NCBI GenBank assembly: GCA_001803565.1
Contig: MHDQ01000066.1
Coordinates: forward strand, 1 to 12,429
Length of the DNA stretch: 12,429 bases
Reading direction: 5' to 3'
Origin: Nitrospinae bacterium RIFCSPLOWO2_12_FULL_45_22
Lineage (GTDB): Bacteria; 2-12-FULL-45-22
Shown here: positions 3,294 to 12,139 of the stretch, in pieces
Layout: each line of letters begins with the position of its first letter
Numbering within the stretch: the stretch's first letter is position 1
Program-made: the position numbers and the translations under genes
Notes under the pieces: model-generated
The model's input: the letters and a program-made list of their open reading frames with translations, nothing else
What the model was told of the DNA's origin: nothing
Database searches by the model: none

Positions 3294-3544
3294 GTAAGTA
3301 TTCAGTAAACCACGAGATTAACACAAGATTATCACAAGATTTTCTTCCTAATCTCTAAACTCTCCTCGCCAACATTTAGTAGCAAACCAACCCTCTTCCT
3401 GGTAGCCTTCAAATAATTTAAAAGTTGTGCCTCAGCATTAGCTGCACCAATAATCTTTTCAGTTATATCTTTATAGAGCCATTTCTCTTCATTATCTTGG
3501 GTAAATCTTGTGGTTTCATTAAACGGGGTTCAGTGAGTATTTAC
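3294..3544. mobile_element. Inverted-repeat element containing a decayed GxxExxY gene
   Basis: The ends are imperfect terminal repeats: GTAAGTATTCAGT at 3294-3306 and the complement of GTAAATACTCACT at 3532-3544. Just inside are arms made of a CACAAGATTA-type word: several copies at about 3308-3343 and one reverse copy, AAATCTTGTGGTTT, at 3503-3516. The interior encodes a fragment of a GxxExxY protein. The terminal sequence resembles those of the elements at 6217-6364 and 11739-11914. No transposase is present, so any movement would need help in trans. Confidence 0.6.
3332..3517 (-). pseudogene. Remnant of a GxxExxY (PD-(D/E)XK-like) protein gene
   Basis: Reading from 3517 to the TGA at 3334-3332 gives a 61-codon frame with no start codon. 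Two pieces match my recollection of the GxxExxY family. The first is LYKDITEKIIGAA, the usual N-terminal helix. It is joined directly to NAEAQLLNYLKATRKRVG and LLLNVG, the usual C-terminal part (typical form: EAQLLNYLKATGxKVGLLINFG). The middle of the protein, including the GxxExxY motif and the nuclease-like core, is missing. This suggests an internal deletion plus loss of the start. Intact members have about 120-130 residues and no established function. The last codons and the stop lie in the CACAAGATTA word array of the enclosing element. Confidence 0.75.
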
Positions 3545-3598
3545 ATCAAATCTTACCATAGTCCAAGCAAAAACAGTGAAGTTTATTATCATATTTTC

Positions 3599-3694
3599 CT
3601 ATAAAACGTCAAGGTTATACAGCTTCAGCTTATCCTCCCTAACCAAATAATCTTTGCGGGTATTGGTAAGCGGTTCAAGCGTGAACTTCCTTAC
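3599..3694 (-). other. Open frame continuing past the membrane-protein stop codon
   Basis: After the TAG at 3697-3695 the same frame stays open for 31 codons to a second TAG at 3601-3599. The peptide includes KFTLEPLTNTRKDYLVRED, is hydrophilic and has no ATG or GTG start. It may be a lost C-terminal extension of the upstream protein, a scrap of another gene, or chance. From 3545 to 3598 I see nothing recognisable. Confidence 0.2.
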
Positions 3695-4441
3695 CTATGC
3701 CTCCTCTTCCTCTTCTTTCTTCTTAGGGCGGAGAGAGAGGGTATCCCAAAGGGCTATGCTCAGGGCTATTATTGCTAGAAGTATAATAGTAGCATAGCCA
3801 TAACTCCTGGAAGAATAGAGGAGTAAATCATCGAAGCGGCCGATTAAGAGAGACATCCGGGCCATTACGGTATAGCCAAAAGCCGCCCCAAAAGATACCA
3901 TCAAGAAGTATATCCCGACCCGTGATACTCCCCTACCTATACCCCTATGTTGTACAGAAAAGAAAAAGTAAAATAGTACTGTGACTACCCCAACCAGGAT
4001 CAAGAAGGCATTAAAATTACTCCAGGTAAATATATGCAACCCTGAGCTACTGGCCTGTACCAGCGGCTTTAAGGTGCCTTGAATCTGCTGCAGTATATAA
4101 GAGGAGATAATCCGTGGGATAGCCACCCCAGAGCCAAACCCTACAATAAAAGCAAATGATATCCGGCTGAGCCAGGATATTCGGGGGATAAATCTGGCCA
4201 GGATCAAGATACCCAGGGTAGCTGGTAAGATAAGCCACCAACGCCCTTCCTGTACCATGGGACTATAAAGGGATTTAACCATTGTATCATAATATATCCT
4301 TACCAGGGTATAACCCATAGAGACCCCTATGTAGAGGTGTTCGCCTAGCTTGAAGAACGGGTTATCTTTATAGAGAAAGCTATACATGAATAGGGTCAGG
4401 CCGACTGCTACCCAACCCCCTAATAAAATATCACCCGGCAT
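3695..4441 (-). CDS. Polytopic inner-membrane protein of unknown function
   Basis: The protein has 248 residues and is mostly hydrophobic. Candidate membrane segments are about 6-23, 35-50 (weaker), 66-85 (WWLILPATLGILILARF), 91-112, 139-160 (very hydrophobic, with VLFYFFFSVQ), 172-192 and 217-236. It ends in a highly charged tail, RPKKKEEEEEA, probably cytoplasmic. I see no catalytic motif and do not recognise a named family. The ATG has TAGGAG 7-8 bases upstream. It lies downstream of the secreted vWA gene on the same strand, and with the ExbB-ExbD-TonB genes before that, an envelope-related role is a reasonable guess. The frame continues open for 31 codons beyond its TAG stop. Confidence 0.8.
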   Translation of the reverse strand: MPGDILLGGWVAVGLTLFMYSFLYKDNPFFKLGEHLYIGVSMGYTLVRIYYDTMVKSLYSPMVQEGRWWLILPATLGILILARFIPRISWLSRISFAFIVGFGSGVAIPRIISSYILQQIQGTLKPLVQASSSGLHIFTWSNFNAFLILVGVVTVLFYFFFSVQHRGIGRGVSRVGIYFLMVSFGAAFGYTVMARMSLLIGRFDDLLLYSSRSYGYATIILLAIIALSIALWDTLSLRPKKKEEEEEA

Positions 4442-4528
4442 CTTTACTCCTACAATTCAATTTAGCATTACCAAATCAAATAAACAGAAATTCCACCCAT
4501 TTAATTTATAAATATCCATTCAATATGT

Positions 4529-4642
4529 TTAGAAGTTGGCCACTTGAATTATCAGGCGTTTCCCATTGTTAATGGTAATCTGGGCATCAGTGATTTTCTT
4601 AGCGGCAAATTCCGCTAGCATCTGATGCTCAGGTTCCTGATC
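4529..4642 (-). pseudogene. Possible tail end of a small broken gene
   Basis: This is a 37-codon open frame between TAG at 4645-4643 and TAA at 4531-4529. It contains HQMLAEFAAKKITDAQIT followed by INNGKRLIIQVANF, a composition that looks coding, with a possible ATG at codon 8. It ends 88 bp before the membrane-protein start. There is no ribosome binding site at the internal ATG, and the frame begins at the edge of the nested-hairpin element. I therefore read it as a C-terminal remnant, possibly of the frame that begins at 4851. The family is not recognised. The remaining 4442-4528 is AT-rich with nothing recognisable except the membrane-protein ribosome binding site. Confidence 0.3.
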
Positions 4643-4784
4643 CTAATGATTCAATGATTTGGGTGTGGCTATTTTCTGTCAGAGAGACCCGTAACTCAAC
4701 CCTTCAGGGTTGACCAATCAGGGCTAAAGCCCCGAGTTACACCAACTTTATGACAAAGAATAGCCATACCCTAATGATTTAATG
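4642..4784. mobile_element. Nested-hairpin element flanked by 15-bp direct repeats
   Basis: Direct repeats CCTAATGATTCAATG (4642-4656) and CCTAATGATTTAATG (4770-4784) differ at one base. Between them an outer stem pairs 4661-4680 with 4752-4771, with about 17 of 20 positions matching. A second stem pairs GTAACTC (4691-4697) with GAGTTAC (4734-4740). It encloses two small hairpins, CAACCC-TTCA-GGGTTG (4697-4712) and GGGCT-AA-AGCCC (4721-4732). The layout resembles a compact branched fold. It looks like a small inserted repeat with a target duplication, although the second direct repeat touches the outer stem. It carries no gene. Confidence 0.6.
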
Positions 4785-4851
4785 TAATTGTCGAACTGGA
4801 AATAGCATGAAAAGAAAAGATGAGGTGGTGCACGATTCGTCTGCTGTTCAT
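4771..4851 (-). pseudogene. Possible head of the same small broken gene
   Basis: An ATG at 4851-4849 has a strong ribosome binding site, AGGAGG, nine bases upstream. It opens a 26-codon frame beginning MNSRRIVHHLIFSFHA and ends at a TAG inside the direct repeat of the nested-hairpin element. If the element and one copy of the repeat were removed, this frame would run in phase into the tail at 4529-4642, interrupted only by that TAG. The peptide itself is not recognised and could be chance. The ribosome binding site is the best evidence. Confidence 0.25.
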
Positions 4852-4855
4852 CCTT

Positions 4856-4879
4856 TTAATCCTCCTCTTAATCCTCCTC
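4856..4879. repeat. Two tandem copies of a 12-bp word containing AGGAGG
   Basis: TTAATCCTCCTC occurs at 4856-4867 and again at 4868-4879. On the minus strand each copy reads GAGGAGGATTAA, duplicating a strong ribosome-binding sequence just before the ATG at 4851. The pair sits 23 bp after the vWA stop codon. Confidence 0.7.
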
Positions 4880-4901
4880 ATGACTATGCTTTAATGAGAT
4901 T

Positions 4902-6182
4902 TTAGGGGTTCTTAGGTTTTATCTGGAGTTCTAGATCAAGTTTTTCTTTCCGATATTGCATTAACCTATCTCTTTCTTTAGCTAAAGTCAATTTTAGCCC
5001 CCTTAACTGATCTCTAGCTAGGTCTAGTTGGAAGGCGATATTGTCATGCGTTTCTGGTTTGAGCCAGTATAAAGAGAGGAGCTTCTCTGCCGCAGTCCCA
5101 TCAGTAGCCGTAACTGATACCCTCACCTTATTTAAACCCTCGGTTAAGGGTACCAGGGCCAAAAAGAAGCCCTCCGGACTCACCAGCATCTCTGAGGCCG
5201 GTTTGGTCAAGGTAGTGTTCTCTACTAGTATGTTTCGTAGCTTGATAAACCTTGCTTCCTCTAAACGGGTAATGATCTCCCCCAGGTTAGAAAGTCCGGT
5301 AAACTGGCCACCAGTAACCCGGGCTATCTCCTGGAGAGTAAAAGGAGAAGAAAGGGCATCTGGACCCAGGGCATAAGTATTGATTTGTATCCCAGCCATA
5401 TAGGCCAGATGGGCTGCACTGATGGTGAGGATTTTGTCCTCAGGATCGGCTGCATTGGCACTACCTACCGGAAAACTGGGGAAGCCGTCACTAAGGAGTA
5501 GGATGATTTTCTTTGTGCGATCATTGGTATGATAACCTGGCGGTTGAGTATCGCTCATCAGACCCATTAATGCCTCGATTCCTAACCGGATACCCGCTGC
5601 TATGTTGGTTCCTCCACGCGCTCCGTTGGTCTTCATCCTATTCAAGGCTTCAGTTATACGGGCATATTCTTTGGTCAGGGGTTGTTCACAATAAGCATCA
5701 GGCGTGGCAATATTGCTACGGCCACTACCGCCCTTAAAATCACCACTGAAACTGATTAAACCCACCTCAGTAGTATCGGGGTCTAATAGCCGCAGCAATC
5801 TCCGGGCTGCTAAAATCTCTGCCGCAAAAATAGAATCGTCCGGGTCAGTATTACCCTCTCCTATCAGACCTTCTAACTCCCGGTAAAGAGTAGGTGCCCG
5901 GCCAATTACTCCATCGTTATCGAGATCCATCCCACAAGGGGCGGCGGCGCTGCCAGAAGTATCCAGGGCAATGATTACTTCATATTTAATATCCTGGCTG
6001 TCAGTGGTATAGATATAGCCAGAGATCGGGGCAATAGGAGAAGTATAATCTAACTTCATACCCGGTAGAGGAAAGTCAATAACCAGCTCTATCTCAGCTA
6101 AAGAGCTTTTGGGTAAAAGCAAAGTAAGGAAGGTCAATATTAAGGCACAAGAGAACTTTTTTTTTAAAGGGACCTCATTCAT
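4902..6182 (-). CDS. Secreted von Willebrand factor A domain protein
   Basis: The protein has 426 residues. A signal peptide is visible at 1-29 (KKK, then CALILTFLTLLLP, ending SSLA), so it is exported. A vWA domain spans about 66-310 with a complete MIDAS metal site: DTSGS (74-78), Thr192 (GGTN) and Asp232 (LLSDG). A DLDNDG loop at 86-91, directly after the first MIDAS motif, resembles an EF-hand calcium loop. Residues about 315-375 look like a beta-sandwich (Ig-like) domain. Residues about 384-420 are a charged helix, probably coiled coil. No C-terminal membrane anchor is seen. The ATG is closely preceded by GGGAAG, a poorly spaced site. It follows the exbB-exbD-tonB genes after an inverted-repeat element. 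The partner and function are unknown; a protein-binding role in the envelope is inferred. Confidence 0.88.
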   Translation of the reverse strand: MNEVPLKKKFSCALILTFLTLLLPKSSLAEIELVIDFPLPGMKLDYTSPIAPISGYIYTTDSQDIKYEVIIALDTSGSAAAPCGMDLDNDGVIGRAPTLYRELEGLIGEGNTDPDDSIFAAEILAARRLLRLLDPDTTEVGLISFSGDFKGGSGRSNIATPDAYCEQPLTKEYARITEALNRMKTNGARGGTNIAAGIRLGIEALMGLMSDTQPPGYHTNDRTKKIILLLSDGFPSFPVGSANAADPEDKILTISAAHLAYMAGIQINTYALGPDALSSPFTLQEIARVTGGQFTGLSNLGEIITRLEEARFIKLRNILVENTTLTKPASEMLVSPEGFFLALVPLTEGLNKVRVSVTATDGTAAEKLLSLYWLKPETHDNIAFQLDLARDQLRGLKLTLAKERDRLMQYRKEKLDLELQIKPKNP

Positions 6183-6216
6183 CTTCCCGTTAACCCTTTT
6201 AAACCATAAAAATATA

Positions 6217-6364
6217 GTAAGCGTTCAGTTGTCAGCAGTCAGTCTTCAGCTAAATTAATCGTGAGGCGTAAGGAGTAAGAAAAATTTCTACTCATGCCTT
6301 ACGATAAGTTTTGCTGACCGCTGACAACTGACGGCTCAGCGGTAAATACTACCCTAAACGCTTA
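6217..6364. mobile_element. Inverted-repeat element between the tonB-like and vWA genes
   Basis: The ends are GTAAGCGTTCAGT (6217-6229) and the complement of TAAGCGTTTAGGG (6352-6364). Inside are arms of a GTCAGCAGTCAG-type word: 6226-6242 pairs with 6314-6330 at 16 of 17 positions. The centre has GTGAGGCGTAAGG-type words facing CATGCCTTAC, making an inner imperfect stem. There is no gene inside. The left end closely resembles those of the elements at 3294 and 11740. The element fills nearly the whole gap and ends 5 bp before the tonB-like stop codon. Confidence 0.65.
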
Positions 6365-6369
6365 TTTTG

Positions 6370-7113
6370 TTATTTCAGGAGGTATTTTATGGGGATAGTA
6401 CCCCATTGCTCTTCTTGTGGGGCATCGGGGGGTAAAGGATTAAAACGCCATTTCTTGAGATAGGCCATCATCTCTCCTTCCAAAGTAGGATCACCCCGCC
6501 GGATGGGGATAACCCTACCTATAGCGCCATCAGGCAGGACCCAAAACTTTAGCTCAATCTCTACTATGGCTCTAAGCTGCAGAGAAGGTGGTGGCGGTCT
6601 AAATATTACCTGTCTTTTACCAGCCGGTCCCTTAATCTGCCACGGCTCTTCTACAAGCAACTCTTTTTCTTTCTCAACAGGTATTTCTATCTTCTCAAGA
6701 AGCCGGGCCTCTTCGGCTCCGATAAGTTCTTGAGAGACTTCCGGACTGAGAAAAATCTCTCCCTTTTCGGTAAACATACCAGGGTCTAGGGGTATTTCTG
6801 TGGGTGGTAGAGAAAAAGTTTCTGGTAAATGTATAGTCGGTCTCCGGGTACGTTCCAGCGCTCCTTGCACATCCAGCTCCATACCTTTAGCCCATAGGGT
6901 TTCTGGTTTTATGGGTGGTTCTTGTAGCTTAGCCGCGGGGCTTTGCAGCGCAGATTCGGCTGGTATAAGGATAACTTCCGTGTATCTTGGCTCTGGCAAA
7001 GCATGGAGAGAAAAGCCCGGTACAAACATTAATATATATACATGCAAAAGAGCAGATAGGACAAGAGAGAGCCCCAGAAAGGAATTTTTATTTCTCATCT
7101 CACTGAGCGCCAT
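6370..7113 (-). CDS. tonB: TonB-like energy-transducing protein
   Basis: The protein spans the inner membrane and periplasm and passes energy from ExbB-ExbD to the outer membrane. It has 247 residues. There is one N-terminal membrane segment (about 11-33) in which Ser20 and His24 reproduce the S-x-x-x-H spacing of the TonB anchor. A long Pro/Glu-rich periplasmic linker follows (about 38-175). The C-terminal domain (about 180-247, with VEIELKFWVLPDGAIG and AYLKKWRFNPLPPD) matches the TonB C-terminal fold. The ATG used here overlaps exbD by 14 bp. A second ATG at 7098-7096, two bases after the exbD stop, would give 242 residues (MRNKNSF...) and is equally plausible. TolA is less likely given the C-terminal domain. 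The protein's outer-membrane partner is not obvious in the window. Confidence 0.85.
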   Translation of the reverse strand: MALSEMRNKNSFLGLSLVLSALLHVYILMFVPGFSLHALPEPRYTEVILIPAESALQSPAAKLQEPPIKPETLWAKGMELDVQGALERTRRPTIHLPETFSLPPTEIPLDPGMFTEKGEIFLSPEVSQELIGAEEARLLEKIEIPVEKEKELLVEEPWQIKGPAGKRQVIFRPPPPSLQLRAIVEIELKFWVLPDGAIGRVIPIRRGDPTLEGEMMAYLKKWRFNPLPPDAPQEEQWGTIPIKYLLK

Positions 7114-7519
7114 TCACTGATTTCTTTGGTAAGGCAGCAATGGCTATCCTCTCTATCCCGGCTACCTTTGCTGCATCCATAACCTCTACTACCCGGCCAT
7201 GCAATACTTCTTTATCGGCGCTGATAATCAAAAATGCCTCTTTATTGGCCGTCACTTCTTTCTTCAACTGGGTCTCAAATGCCTTCAGCGGAACCTTTTT
7301 GTCCCGGAAGAATAGGCTACCATCCCTGGTAATAAGGATTACCAGCTCTTTTCTTATGCTAGACTCAATAGTAGTGGCCTTGGGCAGGTCCACTTTTATG
7401 CCGGGCTGGAAGACAAAAGATGAGGTCAGCATAAAAAAGATCAGCAGGAGCAAGACACAATCTACCAGCGGAGTAATATCAAAAGTCGCCCTAACTCTTT
7501 TTCTGCGAGAGAACCACAT
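7100..7519 (-). CDS. exbD: ExbD/TolR-family proton channel subunit
   Basis: The protein has 139 residues, a normal length. A basic cytoplasmic start (MWFSRRKRVR) precedes a single membrane helix (about 15-36, ITPLVDCVLLLLIFFMLTSS). That helix carries Asp20, the proton-handling aspartate of the family. Residues 37-139 form the periplasmic domain (VDLPKATT... and LIISADKEVLHGRVVEVMDAAK). It starts 29 bp inside the end of exbB and overlaps the tonB-like gene at its 3' end, so the three are one translationally coupled unit. Sequence alone does not fully separate ExbD from TolR. The adjacent TonB-type C-terminal domain favours ExbD, while the nearby TPR protein could fit a Tol-type system. Confidence 0.92.
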   Translation of the reverse strand: MWFSRRKRVRATFDITPLVDCVLLLLIFFMLTSSFVFQPGIKVDLPKATTIESSIRKELVILITRDGSLFFRDKKVPLKAFETQLKKEVTANKEAFLIISADKEVLHGRVVEVMDAAKVAGIERIAIAALPKKSVNGAQ

Positions 7520-8165
7520 CTTCTCTATCCTTTTCCCAGAATACTTCTAGAATATCCAGCGAGTTTTGTTCCATATCTAAAGTCAAAGAGTCTACCTTAT
7601 TTATAAAATAATTATAAAATAGCTGACTGGGGATGGCTACGGTCAAACCTGCCGCGGTAGTGAGTAATGCCTCCGAGATACCGCTGGCTAAGGCCGTAGG
7701 TTCTCCTACACCCCGTAAGGCAATGGTATAAAAGGCCCGGATCATACCTGTGACAGTCCCTAGCAACCCTAACAGGGGGGCAATGCTAACAATAGTCCCC
7801 AGGGTAGCCAAATGCCTCTCTAATACTCTTACCTCTTGCCGACCTGCTTCACTAACAGCTTCCTTGATTTCAGCTTTAGGCTGGTTAATATTTTTGATGG
7901 CAGCCAGGACAATGCGACTCATAGGAGAAGAGTTTTTTTGGCAAAGCTCTATAATATCTGCGATCCTTTCTATCCGGATTAGATCCTGGACCCTGAACAG
8001 GGTCTCAGGTCTTATTATTCGCCCTCGACGTAAACTGATGAGCCGCTCGATGATTATAGCCAGGGACAATATAGAACAAAAAAGGATGGGATACATTACT
8101 GGCCCACCTTTAATAAATAAGTCTATCAATCTCTCCCCACCAAATATGCCCTCTATCCCTTCCAT
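7491..8165 (-). CDS. exbB: ExbB/TolQ-family proton channel subunit
   Basis: The protein forms the inner-membrane channel that uses the proton gradient to drive the TonB-like protein. It has 224 residues with the usual three membrane segments: about 21-43, 119-142 and 165-188. A cytoplasmic domain lies between the first two. The family signature APLLGLLGTVTGMI is at 129-142, with the polar Thr137 and Thr139, followed by GISEALLTTAAGLTVAIP at 162-179. The ATG has a strong ribosome binding site, AAGGAGGAAGAG. The gene begins 42 bp after the S23-family gene, and a tandem-word array lies in that gap. It overlaps exbD by 29 bp. Confidence 0.94.
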   Translation of the reverse strand: MEGIEGIFGGERLIDLFIKGGPVMYPILFCSILSLAIIIERLISLRRGRIIRPETLFRVQDLIRIERIADIIELCQKNSSPMSRIVLAAIKNINQPKAEIKEAVSEAGRQEVRVLERHLATLGTIVSIAPLLGLLGTVTGMIRAFYTIALRGVGEPTALASGISEALLTTAAGLTVAIPSQLFYNYFINKVDSLTLDMEQNSLDILEVFWEKDREDVVLSQKKS

Positions 8166-8182
8166 CTCTTCCTCCTTAAGTA

Positions 8183-8223
8183 AGTTCTAGGTTCTAGGTT
8201 CTAAGTTCTAGGTTCTAGGTTTT
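8183..8223. repeat. Tandem array of a GTTCTAG-type word, left flank of the S23 gene
   Basis: The words AGTTCTAG, GTTCTAG, GTTCTAAG, TTCTAG and GTTCTAG follow one another on the plus strand. The array overlaps the last codons and the stop of the S23-family gene and ends shortly before the exbB ribosome binding site. The same words occur in reverse orientation at 8591-8634. Confidence 0.85.
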
Positions 8224-8576
8224 CGCAGGTATCTGATAAAACCATTGATAAGATTAATTACAGTATTTGCTTGGTTATAAATACTATCGAACTCTTCTAT
8301 AGAGAGATATTTTCTATCAAGAGCCACGTACATATGACTTTTAACCTCAGATACAGAAGCCCTTGCTATTATCAAGAATTGGATAAATTCCTTATTTGTC
8401 TCTCGATCAAAACCCTCGCTGATATTGGACATCGCCGAGATAGAGGCCCGTCGTATCTGATCCCTTAACCCATAATCGTTAGAAAAGTTACCATTATTAG
8501 AGACATCATAGATCATATTTACCAATTTCCTGGCCTCTCTCCATGCATCTATATCCTCAAACTTCTCTATCTTCAT
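8208..8576 (-). CDS. S23 / four-helix-bundle protein (23S rRNA intervening-sequence family)
   Basis: This 122-residue protein of the S23 or IVP family was first noted in intervening sequences within 23S rRNA genes. It is now known as a widespread stand-alone gene of uncertain function. The family pattern is clear: FEDIDAWREARKLVNMIY near the start, then LRDQIRRASISAMSNISEGF, then FIQFLIIARASVSEVKSHMY, then a last helix, consistent with four helices. The ATG has GGGGAG and AAGG upstream. The final residues, KPRT, and the stop are encoded by the flanking GTTCTAG-type array. An inverted copy of the array lies upstream, so the gene sits in a bracketed cassette between the TPR and exbB genes. There is no rRNA here, and a direct role in the neighbouring envelope system is doubtful. 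Confidence 0.88.
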   Translation of the reverse strand: MKIEKFEDIDAWREARKLVNMIYDVSNNGNFSNDYGLRDQIRRASISAMSNISEGFDRETNKEFIQFLIIARASVSEVKSHMYVALDRKYLSIEEFDSIYNQANTVINLINGFIRYLRKPRT

Positions 8577-8590
8577 AACCTTACTCCCCT

Positions 8591-8634
8591 AACTTAGCAC
8601 TTAGCACCTAGAACTTAGAACCTAGAACTTTTTT
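8591..8634. repeat. Tandem array of the GTTCTAG-type word, right flank of the S23 gene, inverted
   Basis: On the plus strand the array reads AACTTAG, CACTTAG, CACCTAG, AACTTAG, AACCTAG, AACTTTTT. Its complement repeats the words of the array at 8183-8223, so the two are in opposite orientation around the S23-family gene. The array supplies the TAG stop of the TPR gene at 8624-8622 and ends 14 bp upstream of the S23 start. Confidence 0.85.
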
Positions 8635-11600
8635 TCTAGGCGCTCTTTGATCTCGGCAATCTTTTTTTTGACCAATTCTCTCTTTCCCGGATCTTTGCCC
8701 TCCTTTACCACCCTCTGGTAAATACTCAGGGCCTCAGACCATCTTTGTAGTTGTTCATAATTTTGCCCGGCCTTGATCAATGCCTCAGTAGATAGCTCTT
8801 TCTGTTCAGGATAGAGATAAGCCACTTTTAGATACTCTTCTATACCCTTCTGATACTCAGCAGCCCGGGTATAAGAATCGGCCAATTTGAAATGGGCCCT
8901 GGCACTTACTTCCTTATCAGGCGACTGGGTAGCTTTAGCAAACCACTCCTGCGCCTTTGCCAGTTCATTTTTCTCTGTGGATATGTCTCCCAGCGCTAGA
9001 TAGCTCCTGAAAGAATACGGCTCTTGGGGGAAGCTAGCTATCACCTTCTGGAAATAAGCTACCGCCTTATCCTTCTGACCGGATGAATAGAGGCAGGAGC
9101 CAATATAATAGAGGGCCTGGGGCACTAGGGGATGCTGAGAAAATTCTGCAATAAACCGCTCAAACCCATAACTGGCCTTTTGATATTCTCGGAGATAGAA
9201 GTTTGCTTCAGCCGTCTTGAACTGTGCTACTGGCCTGAGGCTACTGGCTGGATAGGATTCCAGGAGGCGCTGATAGGAGCGTAGAGCCGAGGCATAGTCT
9301 TTTGCCTGAAAATCCAATTCGCCTATCTGGAAAAAGGCCTTATCAGCTTCCGGGTTCTGGGGAAATACTTCTATGATAGCTTGATACATCTTCCTGGCTC
9401 CAGCGGTATCGCCTTCGGCTAATTGCTGTTCGCCCATCTGATACCTCAGGGTCATACTGAAGAGATGATGAGAATAACGGGTGAGGAATTTCTGGCTCAA
9501 GTCAAAAAACCCTTTTTTCTGGCCTTGTTGCAGGACGGTCTGGATAATAGCATATTCCGGTTCCGCTATCTGAGGATCAGAAGGATAGCTATTTATGATC
9601 TCCTGATAGGTCTTTAATGCCTGCGTATAATCCTTTTCGTTATAATAAGAATCGCCTATAGCCATCGAGGCCCGGAAGGCATAAGGGCTTTTGGGATAGT
9701 TTATAACCACCTTTTTCAACTCATTCCGCGCCACCGGGTAATTCTTTTGCAGAAAATAAGACATCCCATACCAGTACTGGGCATCATCACTCCATTCGCC
9801 CGGAGGTGACTTGGCTAATAGCCCCTCAAAGGCCCTCCTGGCTTCAGGATAATCCTCTCTTTTATAGCTGATCCACCCTAGTTGAAAAAGGGCTCCCTCC
9901 TGTAGACTACTCTGCGGAAATTGCTGTAAAAATCTCTGGAAATGGGTATAGGCCCGATCATATTCTTTAAGATTAAAATAGCACTCACCCAGCCGGAAAA
10001 GGGCCTCAGGCAGCAAGGTACTGTTAGGATATTTATCTATCAATTGCTGGAACAAGGGGGCGGCTTGTTGCCATTTCTCAGTGCGGTACAAGACCCAGGC
10101 CTTGCCATATAAGGCATAATCGGCCTTCTGTCCTTCAGGCGAGATAGCCCCATAGGCCTGCAGGGCTCGGCTAAACTCCTCTTGCTGGAAGCGGGATTCG
10201 GCCAGCCAGAAATTGGCCTCATCTATAAAAGGTGAGTCCGGGAATAGTTGTAAGAAACCTTCCAGGGCTTGGGCAGCCAGTTGATATTCGCCGGCTTGAT
10301 AATAGGATAAGCCTATACGTAACAGGGCCTTCTGATCAAGCTGTAGCGGCTTAACGCCGGTAGCTAGAAACTTTTCTGACTGGCGATAATACTCTATCGC
10401 CTTATGATACTCTTTGATCTGGTAATGACCTTCGCCTAACAAGAATAAGACCAGGGGCTTCAGGGAACTATCCGGATAATCCTTCAACAACTGACCGAAT
10501 ACCCGGATAGCCTCAGGGAAATCTTTTTGCTCTATCTGATAAGCCCCGACTTCGAATATAGCCTTATCCAGCCAGGGGTCCTGATGAGGGTGTTGAGTCT
10601 GGTAGGTTGACAGGAGGGCGGTAGCTTTAGGCAGATTCTTTAGTCCCAGGTAAGCCCGCATCTTGCCTATCAATACCGAGCCCTGGAAGCCACTCTGGGG
10701 GAAGTGCTTTTCTAGCTCCTCCCAGCTTGCTAATGCCTTAGCAAAGTCCTTTATATTAACCTGAGACCAGCCAATCCCATATAGGGCCCGCTCTGCTAAA
10801 GGGCTTGACGGATATTTTTGCCAATATTCTTCATACCGCCTCAGGGCATTAGGATAATCCCGGGCATAATAGAGACATTCCGCCTGCCAGAACAACGCAC
10901 TGTCCACTAAGGGACTGGTAGGTAATTTTTCTCTCAGCTCTTTAAATGCCTGACTGGCCTCACTAAATTTATCTAAGGTATAAAGGGCACCTCCACGCAA
11001 ATAGTAGCCCGACGAAACCAGGGCCGAGTTATTAACCGAGGAGGCATGCTTAATCACGAGGGCATATGCCTTCTCTGCCTGCAAATAATCCTTTTTTTCT
11101 AGATATGTCCAACCTGAAGAAAGATAGGCATAAGGGATATAGCGATGCTCAGGATGGTCTCTTATCAATTCTTCATAAGCCTTCAGGGCCTGAGCCGGCT
11201 CTTTTCGGTTGCTATACGCCTCACCCAACCAGTAGAGGGCTTCACCCCGGTATCTCCCCTGGCGATATTTACGCAGCAAAGTCTCCCAATTCTTTATCGC
11301 CCCAGTAAAATCCTCTTTCTGGAACTTATGCAACCCGATCTTATAATAGGCCTTTTCCTGTACCAGCAGCTTCATAATAGAGGCAGTTACAGCATTACGA
11401 TAGAACCAGCCGGGGCGCTTCTCCTGCGGAATATCCTTAACTATGGGTGTAGTCTCCAGGAATGCCAGTTCCTGCCTTATATCGGGTCTTTCTTTCTCCA
11501 GGCCATACCATATCTCCTGGGGCTGTAGCTTTTCTTTCTCCTCTTTTAGGACAGTAGTATCCTCACCAATTATTACTACCTCTGGCAACTGGATAGGCTC

Positions 11601-11687
11601 CTGAGCCTTTTTCTCCTGGGCCCAGATGCTCGGGCCAAGGGCAATCAGGATAATAATTACCAGGAAATAAAAGATTCTTTTCCTCAT
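8622..11687 (-). CDS. Large exported TPR-repeat protein
   Basis: The protein has 1021 residues when started at the ATG at 11687-11685, which has TAAGG at good spacing. A GTG at 11702 would add five residues and lacks a binding site. The first 24 residues (MRKRIFYFLVIIILIALG, then PSIWAQ) are a signal peptide. Mature residues 31-45 (PIQLPEVVIIGEDTT) resemble the LPEVVV-G stretch near the N-terminus of many TonB-dependent proteins. From about residue 110 to the end there are roughly 24 TPR-like units of 33-37 residues, with repeated patterns such as GDSYYNEKDYTQALKTYQEI, and a short basic tail. The overall form resembles an expanded YbgF/CpoB or BamD-type TPR scaffold in the periplasm. It lies upstream of exbB-exbD-tonB. 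Its stop codon falls inside a repeat array. The partner is unknown. Confidence 0.9.
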   Translation of the reverse strand: MRKRIFYFLVIIILIALGPSIWAQEKKAQEPIQLPEVVIIGEDTTVLKEEKEKLQPQEIWYGLEKERPDIRQELAFLETTPIVKDIPQEKRPGWFYRNAVTASIMKLLVQEKAYYKIGLHKFQKEDFTGAIKNWETLLRKYRQGRYRGEALYWLGEAYSNRKEPAQALKAYEELIRDHPEHRYIPYAYLSSGWTYLEKKDYLQAEKAYALVIKHASSVNNSALVSSGYYLRGGALYTLDKFSEASQAFKELREKLPTSPLVDSALFWQAECLYYARDYPNALRRYEEYWQKYPSSPLAERALYGIGWSQVNIKDFAKALASWEELEKHFPQSGFQGSVLIGKMRAYLGLKNLPKATALLSTYQTQHPHQDPWLDKAIFEVGAYQIEQKDFPEAIRVFGQLLKDYPDSSLKPLVLFLLGEGHYQIKEYHKAIEYYRQSEKFLATGVKPLQLDQKALLRIGLSYYQAGEYQLAAQALEGFLQLFPDSPFIDEANFWLAESRFQQEEFSRALQAYGAISPEGQKADYALYGKAWVLYRTEKWQQAAPLFQQLIDKYPNSTLLPEALFRLGECYFNLKEYDRAYTHFQRFLQQFPQSSLQEGALFQLGWISYKREDYPEARRAFEGLLAKSPPGEWSDDAQYWYGMSYFLQKNYPVARNELKKVVINYPKSPYAFRASMAIGDSYYNEKDYTQALKTYQEIINSYPSDPQIAEPEYAIIQTVLQQGQKKGFFDLSQKFLTRYSHHLFSMTLRYQMGEQQLAEGDTAGARKMYQAIIEVFPQNPEADKAFFQIGELDFQAKDYASALRSYQRLLESYPASSLRPVAQFKTAEANFYLREYQKASYGFERFIAEFSQHPLVPQALYYIGSCLYSSGQKDKAVAYFQKVIASFPQEPYSFRSYLALGDISTEKNELAKAQEWFAKATQSPDKEVSARAHFKLADSYTRAAEYQKGIEEYLKVAYLYPEQKELSTEALIKAGQNYEQLQRWSEALSIYQRVVKEGKDPGKRELVKKKIAEIKERLEKKF

Positions 11688-11738
11688 AGCTAACCTTACC
11701 ACCTAAAATTTATTATCCCCCATTTCAATATTAAAATT

Positions 11739-11914
11739 AGTAACCGTTCAGCCACCAAGGCACTAAGTCACCAAGAAGCTCAAAACTTAAAATGCAAAGT
11801 CTAAAATTAAGGTAATTATTCCTCAGCTTTGCACTTTTAGCTTTGCGTTTTACATTTCCTTGGTGCCCTTGTGTCTTAGTGGCTGATAAAGATTAGCCGG
11901 GTGAACGGTTACTA
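11739..11914. mobile_element. Inverted-repeat element upstream of the TPR gene
   Basis: The terminal repeats are perfect over 12 bp: AGTAACCGTTCA (11739-11750) and TGAACGGTTACT (11902-11913). Next come arms of CACCAAGGCAC-type words: 11749-11775 pairs with 11859-11885 at 22 of 27 positions. The centre holds words of the type AAAATGCAAAG facing CTTTGCGTTTT, forming an inner imperfect stem. No gene lies inside. The element ends 3 bp before the DUF2283 stop codon. Its ends resemble those at 3294-3544 and 6217-6364. Confidence 0.7.
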
Positions 11915-11917
11915 AAA

Positions 11918-12139
11918 TTATACCGGCTGAGCTGATTCACGATAGATGGCCAGATTAATAATCTGGGTGGGATCTTTTGTTGTCCTTTTACTGGCATCAA
12001 GGATTTCAATATCCACAATTCGTTTATCTTTAGCATAGTCAATGATTATTCCATCTACTTCTAACGAATCATCAATCTCCACATCCGGTAGAATTTCTAT
12101 ATTAAGCAAGTCATGAACTGGATCATACTCTATTTTCAT
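11918..12139 (-). CDS. DUF2283-family small protein
   Basis: This 73-residue protein matches the DUF2283 pattern: MKIEYDPVHDLLNIEIL, then a short acidic hairpin (EIDDSLEVDGIIIDY), then RIVDIEILDASKRT. The family has no settled biochemical role. Its members are often paired with a DUF4258-type gene and are suspected by some to belong to toxin-antitoxin-like pairs. No partner is visible here. The ATG is preceded by AAGG and GGG within about 15 bases. The stop lies 3 bp from an inverted-repeat element, beyond which the TPR gene begins, so the gene may be transcribed on its own. Confidence 0.85.
   Translation of the reverse strand: MKIEYDPVHDLLNIEILPDVEIDDSLEVDGIIIDYAKDKRIVDIEILDASKRTTKDPTQIINLAIYRESAQPV

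Follow-up and report, generated by a model that had tools for sequence, protein, structure and literature searches.

The window, by which we mean the whole stretch of 12,429 nucleotides that was analysed, carries three short elements between protein genes (Table 1). They are 149-251 bp long, no transposase ORF was found within them, and searches against Rfam at gathering thresholds gave no match in the window. A first-pass annotation of the same DNA had described them as sharing one terminal sequence around unrelated interiors. The left ends that it listed (3294, 6217 and 11740) all proved correct, with 0 mismatches to the motif GTAASYRTTCASY. The right ends were confirmed for element 3, which is perfect at 11912, and for element 1, where the end at 3544 (GTAAATACTCACT, 3532-3544) has 2 mismatches; in element 2, however, the outermost base is T for C and the end is best placed at 6365 (ATAAGCGTTTAGGG) and not at 6364. 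The annotation was also right that a different short repeated word lies just inside the ends of each element. These words are CACAAGATTA in element 1, GTCAGCN heptamers in element 2 and CACCAAGGCACTAAGT in element 3, and in each case they form inverted arrays.

Table 1. Mobile-element features of the window.
Feature	Coordinates	Strand	Details
Decayed fourth element (probable)	1455-1658 (approx.)		inner module (CACGGATACACACGGATAAAC...) aligns to the interior of IS66-ended L179:1245-1456
Element 1, IS66-ended MITE, 251 bp	3294-3544		terminal inverted repeats 3294-3306 and 3532-3544
Element 1, left word array (AAACCACGAGATTAACACAAGATTATCACAAGAT)	3307-3340	+	inverted partner ~3494-3516
GxxExxY (PDDEXK_3) gene remnant in element 1	3350-3439	-	C-terminal part only; PF13366 E=3.0e-4
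Separate palindrome GGGTGTGGCTATT...AATAGCCATACCC	4661-4771		8-bp flank duplication AATGATTT at 4653-4660 and 4773-4780
Element 2, IS66-ended MITE, ~149 bp	6217-6365		right end decayed
Element 2, 7-nt word array (TTCAGTTGTCAGCAGTCAGTCTTCAGC; GTCAGCN heptamers)	6224-6250	+	inverted partner ~6312-6338
23S-rRNA-IVP (four-helix-bundle) cassette	8181-8630	-	gene 8208-8576, PF05635 6.4e-34; inverted 7-nt word arrays (GTTCTAG/GTTCTAA) at 8181-8221 and 8591-8630
Element 3, target-site duplication TAAAATTA	11732-11739 (left copy)	+	right copy 11913-11920
Element 3, intact IS66-ended MITE, 173 bp	11740-11912		perfect terminal inverted repeats, right end 11900-11912 with 0 mismatches

The three elements are preserved to different degrees. 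Element 3 is intact, and as DNA it folds into one long hairpin (-36 kcal/mol, z -6.45). The flanks of element 1 match at 5/8 positions and thus hold no intact target duplication; sister copies have an 8/8 duplication at L044:4877-5106 and L192:5295-5522 and a 7/8 duplication at L052:1112-1361. Element 1 also contains a gene remnant whose PF13366 match is over its cut-off, and a related element (L195:3529-3864) keeps a larger remnant of a GxxExxY gene, with a best match to residues 34-116 of 117. No target duplication was found at element 2. Its right end (GCGGTAAATACT...) is similar to the one found in a different sub-family (L062:8565-8726) and, judged from the sequence, element 2 is possibly a recombinant. 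The probable fourth element has a right end, GTAACTTTTTAGC, at 1646-1658 on the minus strand. The palindrome at 4661-4771 belongs to a second MITE family which is unrelated to the three elements.

Within the window, 10 matches to the end motif at up to two mismatches were found compared with 3.5 ± 1.8 expected, a modest excess, and three of the ten are words belonging to element 2. Across the 3.67 Mb and 321 contigs of the host genome, the frequency of the motif, on which the first-pass annotation had staked its proposal, was far above that of the reversed control pattern. Exact matches to GTAASYRTTCASY numbered 114 (62 + 52 by strand) against 1 (1 + 0), and at up to one mismatch there were 183 + 190 = 373 against 27 + 24 = 51. 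Motif counts were near background in 59 other genomes, none of them closer than the same order. Among 84,980 species searched for exact GTAACCGTTCASCCACNAAGGCAC, the single match outside the host was in the Deltaproteobacteria MAG CSMAG_1170. This element (L153) has a GTAACCGTTCAGCCACTAAGGCAC end and a similar interior, lies in another phylum and shows no clear target duplication. From its sequence, horizontal spread is a possible explanation for this likeness across phyla.

Target duplications and the IS66 assignment

Much as the annotation had suggested, inverted motif pairs separated by up to 420 bp were collected from 1.70 Mb of the 3.67 Mb host genome, together with the duplications at their flanks. 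An exact 8-bp direct repeat flanked 13 of the 22 exact-motif pairs and 20/53 at one mismatch, while none of the 22 exact pairs had an exact flanking repeat of 5-7 or 9-13 bp. As a safeguard against circularity, a motif-blind scan considered all GTAA...TTAC pairs 40-450 bp apart with exact flanking repeats. Thirty-one units had a repeat of 8 bp, one had a repeat of 7 bp and none had a repeat of 9 or 10 bp; control tips of equal composition gave 0-2. The 62 ends of the 31 units rebuild the consensus, positions 9 and 11 being T and A, respectively, in 60/62, and fall into several sub-families (GTAACCGTTCA[CG]C, GTAAGCGTTCAGC, GTAAGTATTCAGT, GTAACAGTTTAGCC, GTAATTGCTCAATA, GTAACTACTCAGG and others). 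Element 3 of the window is one of these 31 duplication-supported units. The exact 8-bp target duplications demonstrate transposition, and they support the earlier suggestion that one machinery acts on a family of miniature elements.

The first-pass annotation knew of no named family with this layout, but the GTAA tip together with the 8-bp duplication points to IS66, and more precisely to the ISBst12 type. ISDge4, a member of the ISBst12 group, has the terminal inverted repeats GTGACTACTCAGCA / GTAACTGCTCAGCA and an 8-bp repeat, CCTCGATG (PMC12898284), and 8-bp repeats are also listed for the IS66 members ISPpa5a and ISPpa7 (PMC3281130). The ends of IS66 relatives outside the host were read at eight plasmid loci. 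Four of them are complete elements bounded by an exact 8-bp repeat: ISGst1 (end GTAACTATTCAGCCACAT, repeat AAAAGAAC) and the plasmid elements of Thiodictyon (GTAACCGTTTAGCCCCCC, CGCCGGCC), Methylotuvimicrobium (GTAATCGTTTAGCCCCC, GTCGAGCT) and Nostoc (GTAACCGTTCACAGG, CTAAAAAC). The Thiothrix element has an 8-bp repeat (CAATTGGT) and a weaker end match (GTAACTGAACAGT), and the remaining three of the eight loci yielded no clear pair of ends with such a repeat.

The host genome contains a single recognisable IS66 TnpC, which occupies C275:12150-13467 including its left end (PF03050 1e-18, zf-IS66, NF033517 1.6e-47). Its NF033517 score is below the curated cut-off of the model because the ORF is cut. 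The ORF begins at C275:12283, 133 bp inward of a left end that reads GTAACCGTTCACCC, and no tnpA or tnpB ORF precedes it; it resembles in this the ISBst12 group, whose members have a single TnpC without tnpA/tnpB. The ORF is interrupted by an assembly gap (Ns from 13469 onward), and the right end is unassembled. It is a candidate for the transposase with the same ends that the annotation had suggested looking for, with the same left end and a right end lost in the gap. At this position (L083:13469, on C275) a short N run joins the transposase ORF in frame to unrelated HD-domain-like gene sequence, and the junction is probably a scaffolding misjoin that hides the IS66 right end. No IS66-ended unit of 400-2500 bp with a duplication of at least 7/8 was found in the 1.70 Mb, and thus no complete autonomous copy. 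Relatives of the resident TnpC were not found in viral contigs. We also considered that the MITEs are simple internal deletions of the resident IS66 element, and rejected this since only a tip region of ~14-25 bp is shared.

Interiors, nesting and word-array cassettes

Folding was carried out for 29 of the 31 duplication-supported units, namely those of at least 80 bp, and every one was more stable than shuffled sequence (z -2.8 to -14). Their interiors include several types of word array, made up of TCAGC heptamers, CACCAAGG-like 8-nt words, CACGGATACA-like 10-nt words or GCAGAGNC, as well as further types, e.g. GTCATTCTGAGC. MITEs of the TCAGC type have their best self-match at 7/14 nt. Identical word types also occur outside IS66-ended pairs.

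Comparison of related copies showed how such interiors arise. The MITE at L186 is 123 bp long, and the same MITE at L061 carries an additional 120-bp palindrome; a near-identical free copy of this insert is the palindrome at 4661-4771 of the window, which has its own 8-bp duplication. Element 3 differs from L058:12260-12459 by one substitution and by a 27-bp palindrome (CCTGCCTGTGCGGTGCACGCAGACAGG) at the hairpin apex, the rest being identical. The 27-bp palindrome is a small repeat of its own. A unit of 267 bp at L188, with the target duplication CTTTATAC, is a four-layer nest in which the body of element 3 lies within a CACGGAT word array, itself within a different IS66 frame. These empty and filled copies demonstrate nested insertion as the way in which interiors change, which bears out the earlier impression that they are swappable.

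Word arrays also surround genes. The IVP cassette of the window lies between an ExbB/MotA-type gene on one side and a large TPR gene on the other, and no IS66 ends were found at it. In the host genome, inverted short-word arrays flank most GxxExxY and 23S-rRNA-IVP genes, whereas only 12/1409 control ORFs of this genome reached an inverted-array score of 40 or more. Sixteen plasmid and viral loci with IVP or GxxExxY genes (L211-L226) were sampled outside the host, and in 15/16 the score was above that of all 200 shuffles. The array words differ from locus to locus and are common to both arms. The self-matches of pooled IVP arms at spacings of 7 and 14 nt were 0.69 and 0.67, respectively, compared with 0.24-0.33 at other spacings; for GxxExxY arrays one fixed period was rejected, as periods of 8-11 nt were seen. 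The viral contigs scanned held three IVP loci, and no GxxExxY relatives were found in them.

Comparison of related plasmids (L227-L232) revealed sites without a cassette. The IVP cassette is absent from the related plasmid between cas10 and cmr3, nrdB and nrdA, cas6 and cas4, and an integrase gene and a hypothetical gene, and the GxxExxY cassette is absent between radA and a FAD gene. The flanks are ~72% to 99% identical; not every junction could be located to the exact base, and none of these sites has an established target duplication.

Taken together, the three window elements are very probably IS66-family MITEs of the ISBst12 (single-transposase) type, the cargo of which consists of stacked palindromic arrays. 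According to this model, TnpC acting in trans would recognise the ~13-bp terminal inverted repeat GTAAsyrTTCAsy and would move any DNA between two such ends, leaving a target duplication of 8 bp. Since nothing but the ends would matter, the cargo would drift and be replaced. Stacked palindromic word arrays make up most of the cargo in this genome, and further insertions enter them close to the apex of the hairpin or immediately internal to the ends. We infer that the elements were mobilised by the resident TnpC or by a relative that has since been lost. The word arrays appear to be gene-less relatives of the IVP and GxxExxY cassettes, and some element interiors may be what is left of mobile cassettes of a second, little-studied type.

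A broader proposal, to which we would give an even chance as a whole, is that two widespread classes of mobile cassettes exist, one defined by IVP/S23 genes and the other by GxxExxY genes. The ends of such cassettes would be inverted arrays of locus-specific words, alike in both arms, with a period that depends on the class, 7 nt in the case of IVP and ~8-11 nt in that of GxxExxY; cassettes of both classes that have decayed or lack a gene would supply interiors of IS66 MITEs and may explain the cyanobacterial heptanucleotide repeats. The link of IVP and GxxExxY genes to inverted word arrays may be new, and a partial text search of the literature found no link between heptamers and IVP cassettes. 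If the proposal is true, it would provide a general rule for two common unexplained gene families, 23S-rRNA-IVP and GxxExxY, as cassettes within locus-specific inverted arrays, and it would tie rRNA intervening sequences to both heptanucleotide repeats and MITE interiors.

The arrays also suggest a different reading of the elements, in which the word-array interiors, as IVP- or GxxExxY-type cassettes, are the real mobile units and the IS66-like tips at their edges are convergent. Such a reading gains from the occurrence of identical arrays without IS66 ends (window 8181-8630 and the L188 nest) and from the presence and absence of IVP cassettes at orthologous sites in other bacteria. We nevertheless regard it as very unlikely, as the duplications directly adjoin the GTAA tips on their outer side in units with all kinds of interior, and in complete plasmid IS66 elements a transposase gene is enclosed by such tips and duplications. 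Hardly credible, too, is that the elements are regulatory or structural palindromes (REP/ERIC-like sequences or terminators) spread by duplication or selection, with the shared ends as a protein-binding site. All elements are indeed intergenic and form strong hairpins, but exact duplications are confined to a single length, 8 bp, and to GTAA tips, IS66 elements have the same ends, and for intact copies the target duplications refute this explanation; some copies may have a second function. Another DDE family as the mover (IS6, IS256, ISAs1 or IS1595), although these also give duplications of ~8 bp, is highly improbable given that the tip GTAAnyrTTCAsy is found on IS66 elements and borne by the genome's own IS66 TnpC.

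Comparison with known systems

The IVS of the Coxiella 23S rRNA (PMC4990558) is a hairpin unit in which terminal inverted repeats enclose an IVP gene, and the IVP gene of the window encodes the same protein family. The cassette in the window differs in that it does not lie in rRNA and in that its ends are tandem 7-nt words which vary by locus; the window elements are likewise not located inside a 23S rRNA helix. The STRR heptanucleotide repeats of cyanobacteria and Xanthomonas (PMC4692102) are intergenic tandem 7-nt words, as are those described here. In the text of that paper the terms 'S23' and 'intervening' are absent, and no link to an IVP gene is made.

Closer to the elements themselves are MITEPsy1 (PMC3189936) and MITECca01 of Cardinium (PMC9769881), which are also short and non-autonomous with IS-like ends. 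MITEPsy1 has a target duplication (PMC3189936), both are thought to be moved in trans, and their ends tie them to ISPsy2 (PMC3189936) and ISCca4 (PMC9769881), respectively. Each of them, however, was described as one repeated sequence, whereas in the present case at least five types of interior share one end family and, unlike in those descriptions, the host genome contains several end sub-families.

The ends have their counterpart in the ISBst12 group of IS66 (ISDge4, ISGst1), which shares with the window elements the GTAA tip, the end GTAAC(T/C)(G/A)(T/C)TCAGC and the 8-bp target duplication. ISDge4 and ISGst1 carry a single TnpC ORF, whereas the window elements have no transposase and enclose unrelated palindromic interiors within their 149-251 bp. 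Thus an anonymous-looking repeat family becomes a set of IS66-type MITEs with a testable transposase, and the filled and empty copies show one end family carrying many interiors, with palindromes within palindromes. The machinery is most likely IS66-type transposition in trans, which is known in kind and not new. Three features are unusual, namely how many kinds of interior one end family encloses, that their nesting can be seen directly, and the rule that may hold for IVP and GxxExxY cassettes.
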